DNA from: a virus
Direction: 5' to 3' (one strand)
IMG/VR virus record: IMGVR_UViG_3300030060_004154
Coordinates: 1 to 20,361 of that record
DNA: 20,361 nt
The first letter of the stretch is position 1. The number at the start of each line of letters is the position of its first letter. Both the position numbers and the translations under genes were made by a program. This document shows positions 1 through 9,289 of the stretch, one piece after another. The notes beneath the pieces were generated by a model. The model ran no database searches. It was not told where the DNA came from and saw nothing but the letters and a program-made list of their open reading frames with translations.

Positions 1-982
1 CATTAGATTTTCCTGATCTCACTCTTTCGAAGATTTTATCCCGTTGGTCCTTTTTGTGATGACCGTAGACCTGACAACTCTTTCGGTTCGTATGTTCCCA
101 TAATAAATGTGCGAACCTTGTAGCTATCTTCACTGAGGTACAGTACACCGCAATGAATTTACGGTCCTCAAATTGATTGAGGGATTTTGCAACGGCAACC
201 AACCAAGCATCGTACTCTGCCCGATGCATGACCCTGTCCAGTTCCATTTTATTGTAATCACCTTTTCCGGTGATAGTCACTTCATCGAGATTTAATTGAA
301 GCTCCGAGTTAAGGCCAACCAACGGTGCGAGATAGCCTTGCTCGACCCCCTGCTTTACATGATACTGAAAACTATTTCTATCAAACCAGTGACGATTACT
401 GTCGCTGTTACTGCCAATATCATCAGGGCTTCCACTGCGAATATTTCCATCTTTTTTCTCCAAGCAAATTGGTCCGTTATCCATACGCCACGGAGTAGCT
501 GTAAAGGCTACCCGTTGTGCTTCCGGATAAAGTTTAAAAATTTTTTCGTATTGGCTTTTGCCTGACGGGGTCATCGGTACTCGATGGGCCTCATCGACAA
601 TGATAACGTCTGGTGAGGGTATGGGATACTGGTGGACGGTCTTACGATATGCATAATTCTCAACTGTCTGGATGGTACCAAATAGGACTGCCTCTTCAAA
701 GTCCCAACGCCCTACTGGCCGCAACCCTGAGCACACGACACCGGAACGGCAAGCAAACTTAAAATGCTTTTCCCATGTCGCGTGGTTTTGCTCAGTGAGT
801 TTTAGATTGTGGGTCAGTACCCAAACTCTTTTCTTATATGTTGATACAAGTTTGGCAGCTACATCACAAATGACAACTGACTTTCCAGTGCCAGTTGCCA
901 TCGTAATACACGGGTTATACCCTTGCTTGAGGTCTTCGATACAGGCTCGTGTCGCTTCAAGCTGATACTCTCTAAGCCTCAT
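1..982 (-). CDS. SF2 DEAH-box DNA helicase (3' end beyond window)
   Basis: The first 327 residues of a superfamily 2 helicase/translocase of the type III restriction subunit-like (ResIII/DEAD) group; the C-terminus lies beyond base 1. Seen: an N-terminal LREYQ (Q-motif-like), Walker A ATGTGKS at residues 29-35, Walker B DEAH at 130-133, motif III TATP at 161-164, and the start of the second RecA-like domain around 'FIAVYCTSV'. The stretch 'GVEQGYLAPL' is typical of phage and restriction-type SF2 helicases. The likely role is ATP-driven unwinding during phage replication or recombination, in the cytoplasm. The start ATG overlaps the TGA of the upstream 64-aa gene (ATGA), so translation is probably coupled. 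It is the distal gene of the unit led by the promoter at 1847-1875. The family is clear; the exact role is inferred. Confidence 0.9.
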   Translation of the reverse strand, partial: MRLREYQLEATRACIEDLKQGYNPCITMATGTGKSVVICDVAAKLVSTYKKRVWVLTHNLKLTEQNHATWEKHFKFACRSGVVCSGLRPVGRWDFEEAVLFGTIQTVENYAYRKTVHQYPIPSPDVIIVDEAHRVPMTPSGKSQYEKIFKLYPEAQRVAFTATPWRMDNGPICLEKKDGNIRSGSPDDIGSNSDSNRHWFDRNSFQYHVKQGVEQGYLAPLVGLNSELQLNLDEVTITGKGDYNKMELDRVMHRAEYDAWLVAVAKSLNQFEDRKFIAVYCTSVKIATRFAHLLWEHTNRKSCQVYGHHKKDQRDKIFERVRSGKSN

Positions 983-1173
983 TCGGTTGGACCATCTCTG
1001 AGAGATGGTATTGGTTTTACAGGTGGTGGGTTCTTGAACTCCTGACGGAGTTGTCGGGCAAGCTCCAATACTTGCCCTCGCGCACTAACAGGTACGACCA
1101 CTTCTACTCTACAAAGACCCTTATCTTTTGAAGTGGCCCTGTAATTTGAATTGTAACCAGATTGCTTTTCCAT
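979..1173 (-). CDS. Small protein, possible ribbon-helix-helix fold
   Basis: A 64-residue protein directly upstream of the helicase, with a 4-bp ATGA overlap. The centre reads as a short beta-strand (CRVEVVVPV, about residues 21-29) followed by an amphipathic helix (ARGQVLELARQLRQEF), the order expected of the strand and first helix of an Arc/MetJ-type ribbon-helix-helix protein. The proline-rich tail (PPPVKPIP) looks disordered. An RHH protein would act as a DNA-binding dimer, but the second helix is not obvious, so the fold is only a suggestion. Shine-Dalgarno AAGGGA lies upstream of the ATG. The gene belongs to the operon started by the promoter at 1847-1875. Confidence 0.6.
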   Translation of the reverse strand: MEKQSGYNSNYRATSKDKGLCRVEVVVPVSARGQVLELARQLRQEFKNPPPVKPIPSLRDGPTE

Positions 1174-1174
1174 T

Positions 1175-1495
1175 TTAGAAATCCCTTTTTGCTAATTGAT
1201 ACCAAAGAGCCTTACCGTAATCTTCACCCAATCGTCCTTCCAATGCATCGTGAAAATTGTTGGAAGACTCATGCTTGTTCAGTGCATGAAACGCACTCAA
1301 TTCTTCAACGAGATTATAATCATCCCTGACAAAAAACCTCATAGCCTCGGCAATAAGATAATCCATAACCTCATGGCGAGGAATTTTGTAAGCTGCACAA
1401 AAATCATGGATGATTGGAAGAAGGTTGGGGCTGATGTCGTTGAAGACATCAGCCTGAACAGTCACTGCCGAGGTAACTTTTGCAGACTTGCTCAT
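1175..1495 (-). CDS. Hypothetical phage protein, 106 aa
   Basis: Not recognised. Seen: 106 residues, predicted by eye to be mostly helical after a Ser/Thr/Val-rich N-terminus; acidic in the middle ('VRDDYNLVEEL'); no metal-binding or NTP-binding motif; no membrane segment. It starts with ATG after GGGAG, and the A of its ATG is shared with the TAA stop of the upstream 104-aa gene (TAATG). It is one base away from the next gene. The tight coupling says it is expressed with the helicase unit; nothing more can be said about function. Confidence 0.65.
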   Translation of the reverse strand: MSKSAKVTSAVTVQADVFNDISPNLLPIIHDFCAAYKIPRHEVMDYLIAEAMRFFVRDDYNLVEELSAFHALNKHESSNNFHDALEGRLGEDYGKALWYQLAKRDF

Positions 1496-1809
1496 TACGC
1501 AACTCCCTTCAAGTAATGAGTTGCCAACGCTGACTCAGGCCTTACAGAAATCGTCGTGACAGGCTTTTCAGTTGTGTGAGCCTGAAGAAACTGGCGCGAG
1601 ACTTTTGCTTTGAGAGCTGCAATGTCAACGTTCTTACGATTGTGCGTGCGAACCTGAATGGTGCAACCGTGGCCTGCGATGTCAATGTTTTCACCGCGAG
1701 ACTTGAACTCTGCATGGAGTTCTTTCTTGCGTGCGTTAAGAGCTTTGAGTTGACCTTCGATGGCGAGTAACTCATCGGCGGCTGTGTAAAGATCAAATAA
1801 AGTTTCCAT
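1495..1809 (-). CDS. Hypothetical protein with N-terminal coiled coil, 104 aa
   Basis: First gene of the unit controlled by the promoter at 1847-1875. Residues 5-40 form a charged amphipathic helix with leucine/alanine heptad character ('ADELLAIEGQLKALNARKKEL'), followed by a short beta-rich piece ('GCTIQVRTHNRKNVDI') and a second helix. This architecture is common in small phage proteins of unknown role. Start chosen at the ATG at 1809, preceded by CGGAG within the conserved leader box. The family is not recognised and no catalytic residues are evident. An overlapping frame (1542-1844) reads basic and low-quality and is taken as a shadow. Confidence 0.65.
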   Translation of the reverse strand: METLFDLYTAADELLAIEGQLKALNARKKELHAEFKSRGENIDIAGHGCTIQVRTHNRKNVDIAALKAKVSRQFLQAHTTEKPVTTISVRPESALATHYLKGVA

Positions 1810-1846
1810 GTCGTTATCTCCGTTTTAAGTTCTAAGTTATACAAGT

Positions 1847-1875
1847 GTTATACCACCTACTCCGGAAATGGTCAA
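1847..1875 (-). promoter_or_regulatory. Sigma70-type promoter A with CCGG operator half-site
   Basis: On the minus strand: -35 TTGACC (1870-1875), 17-bp spacer ATTTCCGGAGTAGGTGG, -10 TATAAC (1847-1852). The spacer contains TCCGGAGTA, the right half of the palindrome seen complete at promoter B. Downstream comes a variant of the leader box, with AACTTA repeated before AAAACGGAG, ending in the Shine-Dalgarno of the 104-aa gene. The -35 begins three bases after the stop of the 76-aa gene, so it is a distinct promoter inserted between two genes on the same strand. Confidence 0.8.
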
Positions 1876-1878
1876 CAA

Positions 1879-2109
1879 TCAATATTCTTTTTTGTGACCG
1901 AGCTTCTCGTTTTCTATGTAACCCGTGTAATATTCATCTACTTCAAAGTTGGTCATATTAGCTCGGAGCACTTTGACAAATTTACCGTTTACCCACTTAT
2001 TGTAATGTGGGTTGAAAGGTCTGTCGTAGTAGCTATCGGCGCTGCCTCTATCGAAGGGTGATCCGTAGCCTCTTACTTGGTTCCAAGTTTTAGAAGAAAA
2101 ATCACTCAT
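1879..2109 (-). CDS. Conserved small phage protein with GSPFDRGSAD motif
   Basis: A 76-residue protein with the motif GSPFDRGSADSYYDRP at residues 16-31 followed by NPHY. I recall this signature from a widespread family of small phage and prophage proteins, usually annotated as hypothetical. The C-terminal half is acidic and tyrosine-rich ('EVDEYYTGYIENE'). The function is unknown. The start ATG overlaps the TGA of the upstream 76-aa gene by ATGA, with AGAGG as Shine-Dalgarno. It is the second gene of the unit led by promoter B. Confidence 0.75.
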   Translation of the reverse strand: MSDFSSKTWNQVRGYGSPFDRGSADSYYDRPFNPHYNKWVNGKFVKVLRANMTNFEVDEYYTGYIENEKLGHKKEY

Positions 2110-2336
2110 ATCGCAAACCTCTTGATTTGATTAAACCGAGCAGTAGGTAGCTTGGCCCGATTGCCCATTGTGTCACAAACGTAGGTCCATTTTCTACTGA
2201 CCTTCGCCCAAACGATTCGGTGACCGCAACCAACACGAGGTAGCTCATCCTGTAAGTAGACAGTAATCTTGATTGCATCTTTCAAAGCCTTTGGTGGTTT
2301 TTTGCTGAAAGGGTGTTTTGGCATTTTAAATTTCAT
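2106..2336 (-). CDS. Small basic hypothetical protein, 76 aa
   Basis: Start placed at the ATG at 2336, not at a further upstream start in frame, because the conserved leader box with CGGAG sits 6-7 bases before it and the upstream extension would run through promoter B. The 76-residue product begins very basic and proline-rich ('KFKMPKHPFSKKPPKALKD') and continues as alternating hydrophobic stretches that look like beta-strands ('KITVYLQDEL', 'HRIVWAKV', 'WTYVCD'), suggesting a small beta-barrel, possibly nucleic-acid binding. That reading is inference; no family is recognised. It overlaps the next gene by 4 bp. Confidence 0.65.
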   Translation of the reverse strand: MKFKMPKHPFSKKPPKALKDAIKITVYLQDELPRVGCGHRIVWAKVSRKWTYVCDTMGNRAKLPTARFNQIKRFAI

Positions 2337-2364
2337 GTCAGTTCTCCGTTTTAAGTTATCCCTT

Positions 2365-2393
2365 ATTGTACCACTACTCCGGAGTAGTGTCAA
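2365..2393 (-). promoter_or_regulatory. Sigma70-type promoter B with full 18-bp palindromic operator
   Basis: On the minus strand: -35 TTGACA (2388-2393), 17-bp spacer, -10 TACAAT (2365-2370). The spacer is filled by the perfect palindrome CACTACTCCGGAGTAGTG (2372-2389), which overlaps the last two bases of the -35. A protein bound here would be positioned to block or modulate RNA polymerase. The leader box ATAACTTAAAACGGAG follows. The -35 and palindrome lie inside the last codons and stop (TAG) of the upstream 98-aa gene. Confidence 0.85.
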
Positions 2394-2670
2394 ACAAATT
2401 AACAACTTTTAACTGAGCAACCTGACGATTCGATCCCAGACTTCTGACTGTCCGGATGCATCCGTCGATGGTGTAGTCACCATTCAAAAAATTTTTGACG
2501 GTCTGAATCAGATCACCTTTTGTGCCGATCATCAACTCTTGAACGATGGAGTCGAGGGGCATCCCCAACTCCAATGCCTCAGCCCGTGCCTCAGCAACCG
2601 TGTCAAACCAAGGGGTCTCTTTTGACTCATACCCCCACTCTCCATTTAAGATTACCCGATACATTCTCAT
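2374..2670 (-). CDS. Hypothetical protein, 98 aa; 3' end carries promoter B
   Basis: Start set at the ATG at 2670, which overlaps the TGA of the SprT-like gene (ATGA). The longer in-frame reading would run through the end of that gene. The product starts 'MRMYRVILNGEWGYESKETPWF' and has an 'AEARAEAL' helix; it looks like a small mixed alpha/beta protein. No family is recognised. Its last codons (TTT GAC ACT ACT CCG GAG TAG) double as the -35 and operator palindrome of the next transcription unit, so the C-terminal residues DTTPE are dictated by a regulatory site. Confidence 0.65.
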   Translation of the reverse strand: MRMYRVILNGEWGYESKETPWFDTVAEARAEALELGMPLDSIVQELMIGTKGDLIQTVKNFLNGDYTIDGCIRTVRSLGSNRQVAQLKVVNLFDTTPE

Positions 2671-3164
2671 GCTGCTAACCTCGCTTTGTTTGTGTTGACC
2701 AATTCTCTTCGCAAAATCCGGTAAATCTTTTGCCAACCGTGACCGTGTGGTGTGTTGTCAATGTCACGCAACCACCGTGTGTAAATAAAATAATTGAAAT
2801 GGATCAGATGAGCCACCTCGTGGGCAACCAATGCCATCAAAGCATCTTCCGAAGTCTCAAACTCCATTGCTCCAATGACAGGATCATTTTTGATCCGAGC
2901 GTACTCATCGAAAAATGTGTTACCCTTACGAAACTGAGCGACATCGATGCACACATAGTTTTTACCGCCATAGGATCGCTGACCCCTACATTTGATTTTG
3001 AGGTACAACTTATCCCAGACATCAGCCATAGTAAGACGCTTCGAATTTGGCCCAGTGATTTCCCACTTGGCTTTAACGATTTCCTTGATACATTTTTTGG
3101 TAAGGCGTTTCACCAAGTCGCGTTCCGCAGTGGTGACGTTCTTGGACTTTTTTATCAATCCCAT
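2667..3164 (-). CDS. SprT-like zinc metalloprotease domain protein
   Basis: A 165-residue protein with the zinc metalloprotease signature HEVAH at residues 115-119 and a third histidine candidate in PHGHGW (140 or 142) about 20 residues later, followed by 'KIYRILRREL'. This order (HExxH, then H near a G-W/F) is the SprT/Spartan-like peptidase core. It lacks an obvious C-terminal zinc ribbon. Cellular Spartan proteins cut DNA-protein crosslinks; whether the phage protein clears proteins from DNA or attacks a host target is unknown. It is the first gene after promoter C; the ATG follows CGGAG. The N-terminus is basic, which would suit DNA association. Confidence 0.75.
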   Translation of the reverse strand: MGLIKKSKNVTTAERDLVKRLTKKCIKEIVKAKWEITGPNSKRLTMADVWDKLYLKIKCRGQRSYGGKNYVCIDVAQFRKGNTFFDEYARIKNDPVIGAMEFETSEDALMALVAHEVAHLIHFNYFIYTRWLRDIDNTPHGHGWQKIYRILRRELVNTNKARLAA

Positions 3165-3205
3165 ATTGGGTCTCCGTTACAGTTTTAAGTTATCGTTATT
3201 TTCAC

Positions 3206-3234
3206 AGTATAACATTTTCCGGAGTAGATGTCAA
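3206..3234 (-). promoter_or_regulatory. Sigma70-type promoter C with CCGG operator half-site
   Basis: On the minus strand: -35 TTGACA (3229-3234), 17-bp spacer TCTACTCCGGAAAATGT, -10 TATACT (3206-3211). The spacer keeps the left half TACTCCGGA of the palindrome. The downstream leader reads ATAACTTAAAAC, then an extra CTGTAA-type insertion, then CGGAG before the ATG of the SprT-like gene. It points leftward and is back-to-back with the candidate rightward promoter at 3252. Confidence 0.83.
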
Positions 3235-3251: not shown

Positions 3252-3281
3252 TTGACAAAAAATATTATTTGTTTCTATTTT
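3252..3281 (+). promoter_or_regulatory. Candidate rightward promoter for the replication operon
   Basis: A consensus -35 TTGACA at 3252-3257 is followed, with an 18-bp AT-rich spacer, by TATTTT at 3276-3281 as a mediocre -10. It lies between the divergent minus-strand promoter C and the first plus-strand gene, where a promoter for the 3410-8347 operon must lie. It has no CCGG palindrome, so it would escape the control of the four leftward promoters. The -10 is weak; the start site could be elsewhere. Confidence 0.45.
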
Positions 3282-3290
3282 TAGTCTCCA

Positions 3291-3402
3291 TCTCAGTACT
3301 CCAGAGCTTGGTCCGACGAGTTCTGGGGTACAAGATGGTTTCATTTTAATTCCAAATACTCCCCAGAAGGTGCAACTTTTGGGGAACCTTTTATAACTGA
3401 GA
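3291..3402 (+). ncRNA. Structured 5' leader RNA, two hairpins with alternative pairing
   Basis: Hairpin 1: 3296-3310 pairs with 3317-3331 across a 6-nt loop GTCCGA (15 pairs, three of them G-U). Hairpin 2: 3360-3369 pairs with 3376-3385 across loop GTGCAA (10 pairs, one G-U), followed by CCTTTTAT. The 3' arm of hairpin 1 (TTCTGGGG, 3321-3328) is also exactly complementary to the 5' arm of hairpin 2 (CCCCAGAA, 3361-3368), so the two states exclude each other. TCTCAGT (3291-3297) and ACTGAGA (3396-3402) can close the whole element, and the latter includes the only GAG near the 3410 start codon. It could be an attenuator, a translational switch, an RNase III processing site or part of an origin. 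No known riboswitch class was recognised. Confidence 0.55.
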
Positions 3403-7862: not shown

Positions 7863-8347
7863 TTACGATTGGCATAGATCCGGGTCTAAGAGGGGCCATT
7901 GGAATCCTAGATAATGGACAGTTTAAATCCGTACACGACATGCCAGTGATGAATAAAGGTGGTGGTAAAGTTAAATGGGAAGTTGATGTATCAGCTACGA
8001 TCAACTTACTACGACAAAAAAGTCGGAAGGATGGTGAACCTGAAGATTTTATTTCGTGTGTTATTGAGAGAGTTAACGCTCATCCGGGTCAAGGAGTTTC
8101 AAGCGTATTTTCTTTGGGTGATTCTTTCGGCAGTGCTCGTGCTTGCGTGGCAAGCTGCCGATTCGAACTGCGATATGTTACACCTCAAGTATGGAAAAAA
8201 TACTTTGGATTATCATCAGACAAAGAACAAGCCAGAGCACTTGCCCTGACAATGTTTCCTGATGCTCCGATTAACTTAAAAAAATACTCAGACCGAGCCG
8301 AGTCCTTGTTAATGGCTAGGTGGTTATGGGAGACGGAGTTTGAATAG
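7859..8347 (+). CDS. RuvC-like Holliday junction resolvase
   Basis: A 162-residue RNase H-fold endonuclease of the RuvC type: GIDPG at residues 5-9 (D7), VIERV with E70, and 'YSDRAESLLMA' with D145 and E148, supplying the four acidic metal ligands in the expected order. 'VTPQVWKKYFGL' before the last helix is also typical of phage RuvC-like proteins. It would cut branched DNA before packaging or during recombination. ATG overlaps the nuclease stop (ATGA). The 3' end overlaps the oppositely oriented mom-like gene by 32 bp, and a terminator-like hairpin lies just past the stop. Confidence 0.88.
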   Translation: MITIGIDPGLRGAIGILDNGQFKSVHDMPVMNKGGGKVKWEVDVSATINLLRQKSRKDGEPEDFISCVIERVNAHPGQGVSSVFSLGDSFGSARACVASCRFELRYVTPQVWKKYFGLSSDKEQARALALTMFPDAPINLKKYSDRAESLLMARWLWETEFE

Positions 8348-8984
8348 GTTCCTTTGGATAGTTATCCAAAATTTTATACCTCAACGCTTTTCTTAGATCC
8401 TTTTTCTCGCGTTTGCTTCCTAGAAAGTAAATGTATCGATGTTTTTGAGATCGCTCTACAACCTCATATTTTTCTGGGTTAGCTATTCGTTCTTCTAACG
8501 TGCTTTGTGACACGATAGTCTTAGAGTGCAAATTAGAGCCACGGACAACCCATTCAGTTCTTTTGGCACTTATACCAGTGTAAACAAAATTGAGTGCCTG
8601 ATAGATGACTCCTGTATGGTCCTGAGCCGTGTCAGCGTAGGAGACAACTACCTTTGGTCTTGGCAATAGTTTTAGAGCACGACTAACCAGAAAAGACGCT
8701 TCGTTTTTCAGATTGTCACGGAGCACAAGTCGGTTAAGTTCGATGACGTTTTCCTTGTGTTCCACGCCACAGACCCCCTCACACAACGAGGGTGATGGTG
8801 GTGTACCAAAAGAAACAATCCCCACAAGTGGCCCGATACGGAACAAGTCGTGAGGATTGTCACCCTTTTTGAATAAGCCAAATGCCCAACTTATCGAGGG
8901 TACTCGCCTCGCATAATGAATATCCAATATGAAAGGCAAGCAATCTTGATAATTGATAGGCTCGACGTTGTATTCTCTCTCCAT
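8316..8984 (-). CDS. mom: Mom-family DNA adenine modification protein
   Basis: A 222-residue protein of the phage Mu Mom family, which has an acetyltransferase-like fold and converts adenine to a carbamoylmethyl (acetamido-type) adenine in phage DNA, giving resistance to host restriction. Seen: DIHYARRVPS at residues 21-30, GIVSFGTPPSPSL at 55-67, ELNRL at 82-86, VSYAD at 114-118 and HTGVIYQALNF at 123-133, the run of conserved blocks I recognise from Mom proteins. The length is close to Mu Mom. The C-terminal tail is basic then proline-rich. It is the second gene of a two-gene unit, two bases after the 81-aa gene, driven by promoter D. Family assignment is strong; activity is inferred. Confidence 0.9.
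   Translation of the reverse strand: MEREYNVEPINYQDCLPFILDIHYARRVPSISWAFGLFKKGDNPHDLFRIGPLVGIVSFGTPPSPSLCEGVCGVEHKENVIELNRLVLRDNLKNEASFLVSRALKLLPRPKVVVSYADTAQDHTGVIYQALNFVYTGISAKRTEWVVRGSNLHSKTIVSQSTLEERIANPEKYEVVERSQKHRYIYFLGSKREKKDLRKALRYKILDNYPKEPIQTPSPITT
8353..8377 (+). terminator. Candidate terminator of the rightward operon (inside mom)
   Basis: TTTGGAT (8353-8359) and ATCCAAA (8364-8370) form a 7-bp stem with loop AGTT followed by ATTTTAT, five bases after the resolvase stop. The stem is AT-rich, so termination may be weak. It lies antisense within the 3' part of the mom-like gene. Confidence 0.45.
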
Positions 8985-9232: not shown

Positions 9233-9260
9233 TTTTGTTCTCCGTTTTAAGTTATTCTTA

Positions 9261-9289
9261 TTTATAACAACTTCCGGAGTAGATTGCAA
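9261..9289 (-). promoter_or_regulatory. Sigma70-type promoter D with CCGG operator half-site, upstream of mom unit
   Basis: On the minus strand: -35 TTGCAA (9284-9289), 17-bp spacer TCTACTCCGGAAGTTGT, -10 TATAAA (9261-9266). The spacer keeps TACTCCGGA like promoter C. The downstream leader box ATAACTTAAAACGGAGAAC matches promoter B almost exactly. It lies immediately after the endolysin stop with no terminator between, so late transcripts could also enter the mom unit. Confidence 0.8.

Follow-up and report, generated by a model that had tools for sequence, protein, structure and literature searches.

Here, we provide comparative sequence evidence that an uncultured tailed marine phage uses what appears to be one regulatory format four times, namely a strong promoter of the host sigma70 type, a palindromic operator within its 17-bp spacer, and a fixed leader that carries the Shine-Dalgarno sequence. 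The spacer palindrome is probably the operator of a dimeric, phage-encoded repressor that is specific to a phage group and would shut off early sigma70 promoters. The format, its conservation, the replacement of the operator between sister groups, and an exchange of genes that is bounded by the leader can be read directly from the aligned sequences. The analyzed window comprises bases 1-20361 of a 50,333-bp viral contig and holds genes for a family-B polymerase (PolB), an AAA ATPase, a SprT-like protease, a Mom-family enzyme, and, as assigned by sequence, a RuvC-like protein; portal, terminase, and structural genes are located in the remainder of the contig. The portal protein is nearest to those of Caulobacter, Roseobacter, and Pelagibacter phages (30-50% identity). 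A megablast search against phage records gave no match to the contig, and a PolB-based search of genome contigs returned no host contig. No integrase was found among the reading frames examined, a non-exhaustive set, and a lysogenic role is thus without support.

A first-pass annotation of the window had proposed four minus-strand sigma70-type promoters with spacers of exactly 17 nt, and both the positions and the spacing hold for all four. Promoter A (1847..1875, TTGACC-ATTTCCGGAGTAGGTGG-TATAAC) drives operon A on the same strand, which consists of a 104-aa gene (1495..1809), ORF106 (1175..1495, encoding a 106-aa protein), ORF64 (979..1173), and the helicase. Promoter B is located at 2365..2393 (TTGACA-CTACTCCGGAGTAGTGG-TACAAT). 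Promoter C (3206..3234, TTGACA-TCTACTCCGGAAAATGT-TATACT) drives the SprT-like metalloprotease gene (2667..3164, minus strand), whose PF10263 match was just under the cut-off (E 6.4e-5). Promoter D (9261..9289, TTGCAA-TCTACTCCGGAAGTTGT-TATAAA) drives operon D, which has a variable small gene and, in second place, the Mom-family DNA-modification gene mom (8316..8984, minus strand; PF25680, E 8e-35). A feature that had passed unremarked is a TG one base upstream of the -10 in each promoter.

The symmetry of the spacers was likewise described correctly. Promoter B contains a perfect 18-bp palindrome (CACTACTCCGGAGTAGTG, 2372-2389), promoter A retains the right half (TCCGGAGTAG, plus-strand positions 1857-1866), and promoters C and D retain the left half (CTACTCCGGA, plus-strand positions 3218-3227 and 9273-9282), with the palindrome centre 6 (A), 7 (B), or 8 (C and D) bases from the -35. 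The further claim that TCCGGA is embedded in TACTCCGGAGTA in all spacers stands for the hexamer, which is present in all four, but the full TACTCCGGAGTA is found in B only. At promoter B, the last codons of the 97-aa gene overlap the promoter (2374-2393, minus strand), and the operator contains the TAG stop of this gene.

Across the 50.3-kb genome, the 10-bp half-site CTACTCCGGA is present four times, each time in the spacer of one of these promoters, and a scan of the remaining 30 kb of the contig revealed no further promoter-operator copy. In 300 dinucleotide shuffles of the 50,333-bp contig, a mean of 0.007 promoters of this form was expected by chance; the pattern used for this test filtered out promoter D and thus counts three although four are present. 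The divergent promoter of the replication (polymerase) operon (3252..3281, plus strand, TTGACA-18-TATTTT) is conserved in the same alignment without an operator. It serves as an internal control, and the operator is therefore a feature of the minus-strand set. The polymerase operon has a long leader (3290-3390, plus strand) with two hairpins that have CCCCAGAA/TTCTGGGG in common, which is replaced by a short leader in three relatives (L011, L012, L015); it is possibly an inserted RNA element, and a search of RNA families gave none at the gathering threshold.

Downstream of every -10 we found a leader, ATAACTTAnAACGGAGA, that ends in a Shine-Dalgarno sequence and that was missed by the first-pass annotation. 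It has the form ATAACTTA-n-AACGGAGA, starts 5-6 nt 3' of the -10, and ends a few nucleotides upstream of the start codon. Leader A (ATAACTTAGAACTTAAAACGGAGA, 1817..1840, minus strand), which begins 6 nt past the -10 and includes the Shine-Dalgarno sequence, and leader C (ATAACGATAACTTAAAACTGTAACGGAGA, 3171..3199, minus strand) are extended versions, and leaders B (2343..2359) and D (9239..9255), both on the minus strand, read ATAACTTAAAACGGAGA. By position, we infer that the leader forms the first bases of the transcript. The operator is located between -35 and -10 and hence is absent from RNA made from its own promoter. The leader also occurs without a promoter, in L008 (seen as L037) and at the group-2 loci L166, L086, and L102. 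Two such cases concern the gene of position B (MKFKMPK...), near 4600 in L008 and near 2441 in L166 (both minus strand), where the leader was kept and promoter and operator were lost.

Near relatives with 83-99% PolB identity (group 1) retain the operator sites promoter by promoter, with TCCGGA in the same register. Promoter B is symmetric in every relative that retains it, promoters C and D have the left half only in the relatives examined, and TCCGGAGTAG is invariant at promoter C in nine aligned sequences. Promoter A is conserved with its right half in L004-L015, and some relatives have both halves around a 5-nt centre, giving the fuller palindrome ACTACTTCCGGAGTAGT. Some relatives have lost promoter B or carry an extra promoter copy. 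The first gene behind promoters B and D varies among relatives, with at least three different first genes behind D; the first gene of operon D often encodes a protein with a DnaJ-type zinc-finger motif. Many other matches to the half-site pattern in viral contigs lacked the leader or the promoter and were rejected as chance. Among isolated relatives, six were examined (Caulobacter phage RW, Roseobacter phage CRP-901, an uncultured spring phage, Rhodobacter phage RcTitan, Vibrio phage LP.1, and Pelagibacter phage HTVC023P), and a matching promoter set with this leader was not found in them.

Searching with the leader alone recovered a second, syntenic group of phages (group 2, PolB about 64% identical) that has the same promoter format and a different spacer palindrome. 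Its operators are CCTA-N7/8-TAGG palindromes (e.g., ACCCTACTACATAGTAGGGT), and the 16 distinct promoters all have 17-nt spacers with a mean inverted-repeat arm of 6.6 nt, as compared to 3.27 +/- 0.20 nt in shuffled spacers. Eight promoters of this format are present in the 47.3-kb group-2 contig G014. Only the arms CTA..TAG are common to the operators of both groups: the central TCCGGA is fixed in group 1, whereas group-2 operators have a variable centre flanked by an almost invariant outer CC/GG. Between the orthologous promoters A and C of the two groups, the hexamers are identical at 12/12 positions and the spacers at 7/17. Loss of the palindrome in related phages under conserved -35 and -10 elements had been named as evidence against an operator function; the palindrome is retained in the near clade, and outside this clade a different one stands in its place next to unchanged hexamers, which is replacement and not mere loss. 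The earlier suggestion that graded symmetry may tune promoter strength is compatible with the constant patterns of B, C, and D in the relatives examined, but nearly all group-2 promoters show near-full operator symmetry.

Farther phages (PolB about 54% identical) possess a related leader, ATAACTnnTAACTGGAG, and other spacer sequences, some of them palindromic. In five of these contigs (L183, L190, L194, L212, L222), TTGCC-type promoters with palindromic spacers precede the leader ATAACTnnTAACTGGAG, and these phages may have a third, CTTTT..GAAAAG-like operator type. Several TTGACA promoters with inverted-repeat-like spacers are also present in Vibrio phage LP.1 (L237; 19725 and 21274 on the plus strand, 25838 on the minus strand), and this isolated phage could be a tractable analogue.

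The strongest evidence that the operator is read by a phage-group-specific regulator comes from the pattern of gene exchange. An 81-aa gene is preceded by a group-1 operator in L012 and by a group-2 operator in L086 and L106, although the reading frame is identical between groups at 242-244 of 246 nt (244/246 for L012 vs L086). Identity extends through the 18 nt before the start codon (16/18) and drops in the promoter region (14/30) to a level close to chance farther upstream (18-19/74); at the other end, it breaks off within the leader that precedes the following gene. The same upstream junction is seen for the D-position gene of L011 and L120 (178/183 identical) and for the B-position gene of L106 and L167, the latter from a third group (280/324 identical). 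This evidence comes from three gene families, and because the contigs of one group are close relatives, their counts are not independent. As these recently exchanged accessory genes carry the resident operator and are joined at the leader, the operator follows the phage and not the gene. The operator sequence would thus belong to the phage group and its regulator, and a gene that arrives by exchange at the leader would come under the control of the resident operator and become part of the regulon. The 104-aa gene of operon A has its group-2 orthologue behind a different operator.

Dyad symmetry inside the -35/-10 region that is conserved beyond chance fits the predicted operator of a dimeric repressor in an early promoter. 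Transcription of these genes by host RNA polymerase would begin early in infection. It would last until a dimeric protein, in all likelihood a repressor that the phage encodes, binds the operator CTACTCCGGAGTAG between -35 and -10, blocks the polymerase, and shuts off the early genes; operon A may itself encode this protein and would then be autoregulated. What we infer from this arrangement is that the regulator represses, binds as a dimer, and comes from the phage, and when it acts. At lambda OR/OL and in the P22 ant/Arc system, a repressor dimer positioned over the -35/-10 region blocks host polymerase; those systems have one or two control regions, whereas the operators described here serve separate accessory-gene operons with a portable leader. 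Two features are at odds with a simple dimer operator. Promoters C and D retain a half-site only, which is unusual for a simple dimer, and the arms of group-2 operators are 7 or 8 nt apart, a variation that some dimers would not tolerate. The dedicated regulon of a spacer-bound dimeric protein suggested by the first-pass annotation appears well supported by the comparison between phages.

The spacer element could alternatively be an activator site, or a promoter-recognition element of a phage factor that acts together with RNA polymerase, such that the regulated state is 'on'. It is placed where MerR-family activators bind and is present in every promoter of the set. However, MerR-family promoters have 19-20 bp spacers and a fixed operator position, whereas here the spacer is 17 bp and the site centre shifts by 1-2 bp. 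An optimal spacer with near-consensus hexamers should need no help, and this combination together with the shifting centre favours a blocking repressor over a MerR-type activator. The palindrome, moreover, has changed almost completely between groups while the hexamers have not. We thus regard activation as very unlikely, and a dimeric repressor that blocks polymerase from a site over the spacer is the simplest reading of promoters that need no activator.

Binding of the operator by a host transcription factor, either exploited by the phage or repressing incoming phage genes, would be in accordance with the lack of a recognisable regulator family among the scanned phage proteins and with operators that differ by group, as hosts may. 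The genes exchanged between groups 1 and 2, however, are about 99% identical at the nucleotide level, which points to hosts that are shared or neighbouring. In 84,980 bacterial and archaeal genomes, in addition, the exact promoter-operator arrangement was no more frequent than expected by chance (2 matches in a search for the exact arrangement, by which host promoters with a half-site only would be missed). A widespread host regulon with this exact arrangement is therefore not seen, which argues mildly against a host factor, and we consider this explanation unlikely. A recent duplication of one cassette as the source of all four promoters, with a functionless palindrome, is highly improbable. 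Leader and promoters are indeed alike within the genome and cassettes do move, but the copies differ in register and in the half-site kept, each pattern is preserved across relatives, every group-2 promoter of the set has a different palindrome, and the half-site never occurs outside promoters. The presence of a Mom-family protein in operon D might point to TCCGGA as a DNA-modification or restriction switch, similar to the control of Mu mom by Dam methylation. This explanation is extremely improbable, as group-2 palindromes have no fixed central motif and TCCGGA is not avoided elsewhere. With 17 sites in the whole contig vs 8.8 expected from base composition, 4/17 being the promoter sites, it is over-represented, and we rejected TCCGGA as an avoided restriction site.

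Pfam, PHROGs, PDB sequence, and fold searches of the scanned proteins yielded no convincing match to a regulator, and no DNA-binding regulator families except the terminase small subunit. ORF106, ORF64, and the 104-aa, 97-aa, and SprT-like genes are present in groups 1 and 2 and absent from groups with other spacers, as is the 76-aa gene of position B from the latter groups. ORF106 in particular is confined to group-1 and group-2 contigs, i.e., to phages with CTA..TAG operators, and is most conserved at its N-terminus. Its predicted structure, a poor model (pLDDT 63), has an uncertain short N-terminal segment followed by two helices, as might be expected of a ribbon-helix-helix protein. Searches of families, PDB, and folds gave no significant match for it. 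By context and predicted helices, ORF106 is a weak candidate for the regulator. ORF64, found in groups 1 and 2 only, is a second and weaker candidate; for this protein, a ribbon-helix-helix fold was not favoured, as an extended segment and one helix are predicted. It is tempting, if speculative, to propose a clade-wide cassette system in which leader-joined accessory genes are controlled by a resident repressor, perhaps ORF106, of an undescribed DNA-binding family whose specificity changed between sister groups.

Among described systems, the promoter set is closest to the ESAS/SAS elements of cluster K mycobacteriophages (TM4, Adephagia, Pixie; PMC3203893, PMC11373665), being the same kind of device with unrelated sequence and not a member of that family. 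Adephagia has seven ESAS sites with an inverted repeat and SigA-like hexamers 17-18 bp apart (PMC11373665), and in cluster K the start-associated sequence is located downstream of ESAS and the repeat consensus is subcluster-specific (PMC3203893). Both systems comprise several sigma70-type promoters per genome (four copies here) with an imperfect inverted repeat and 17-18 nt spacing, followed by a conserved element over the Shine-Dalgarno sequence. In both, the start element can be present where the promoter element is missing, and the associated genes vary between phages. The phages are unrelated, however, and cluster K has a 13-bp SAS (GGGATAGGAGCCC) at start codons, whereas the leader described here begins about where the transcript should start. 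The palindrome is here located in the -35/-10 spacer and has been replaced far more between groups, and single-gene exchanges with leader junctions are seen directly. The operator and stoperators of cluster A phages are similar in having many sites per genome with a group-specific sequence, which tracks immunity specificity (PMC6550527, PMC9283540, PMC4351075), but stoperators are asymmetric, distributed genome-wide, and stop elongation, in contrast to sites that are restricted to promoter spacers and include one perfect palindrome. The 17-bp dyad repeats of cluster O phages, which are without evident lysogeny, are likewise palindromes in multiple copies, for which binding by a phage dimer has been proposed (PMC4351075); most of them are off promoters, whereas all sites described here are at promoters. 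Our searches of the open-access literature turned up no description of this element in marine phages, and what appears to be new is the replacement of operators by phage group together with gene exchange that ends at the leader.

These findings suggest a sequence-level answer to how phages admit new small genes and yet keep control, with the joint at the leader, downstream of the operator. Orthologous promoter pairs that differ almost only in the operator make a change in regulator specificity directly testable, and the format flags small genes of uncultured marine phages that share one control circuit. For the unexplained ESAS/SAS elements of cluster K, it also supplies a parallel from phages that are unrelated to these mycobacteriophages. 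Newly acquired genes thereby seem to be placed under a control circuit that belongs to the phage itself.
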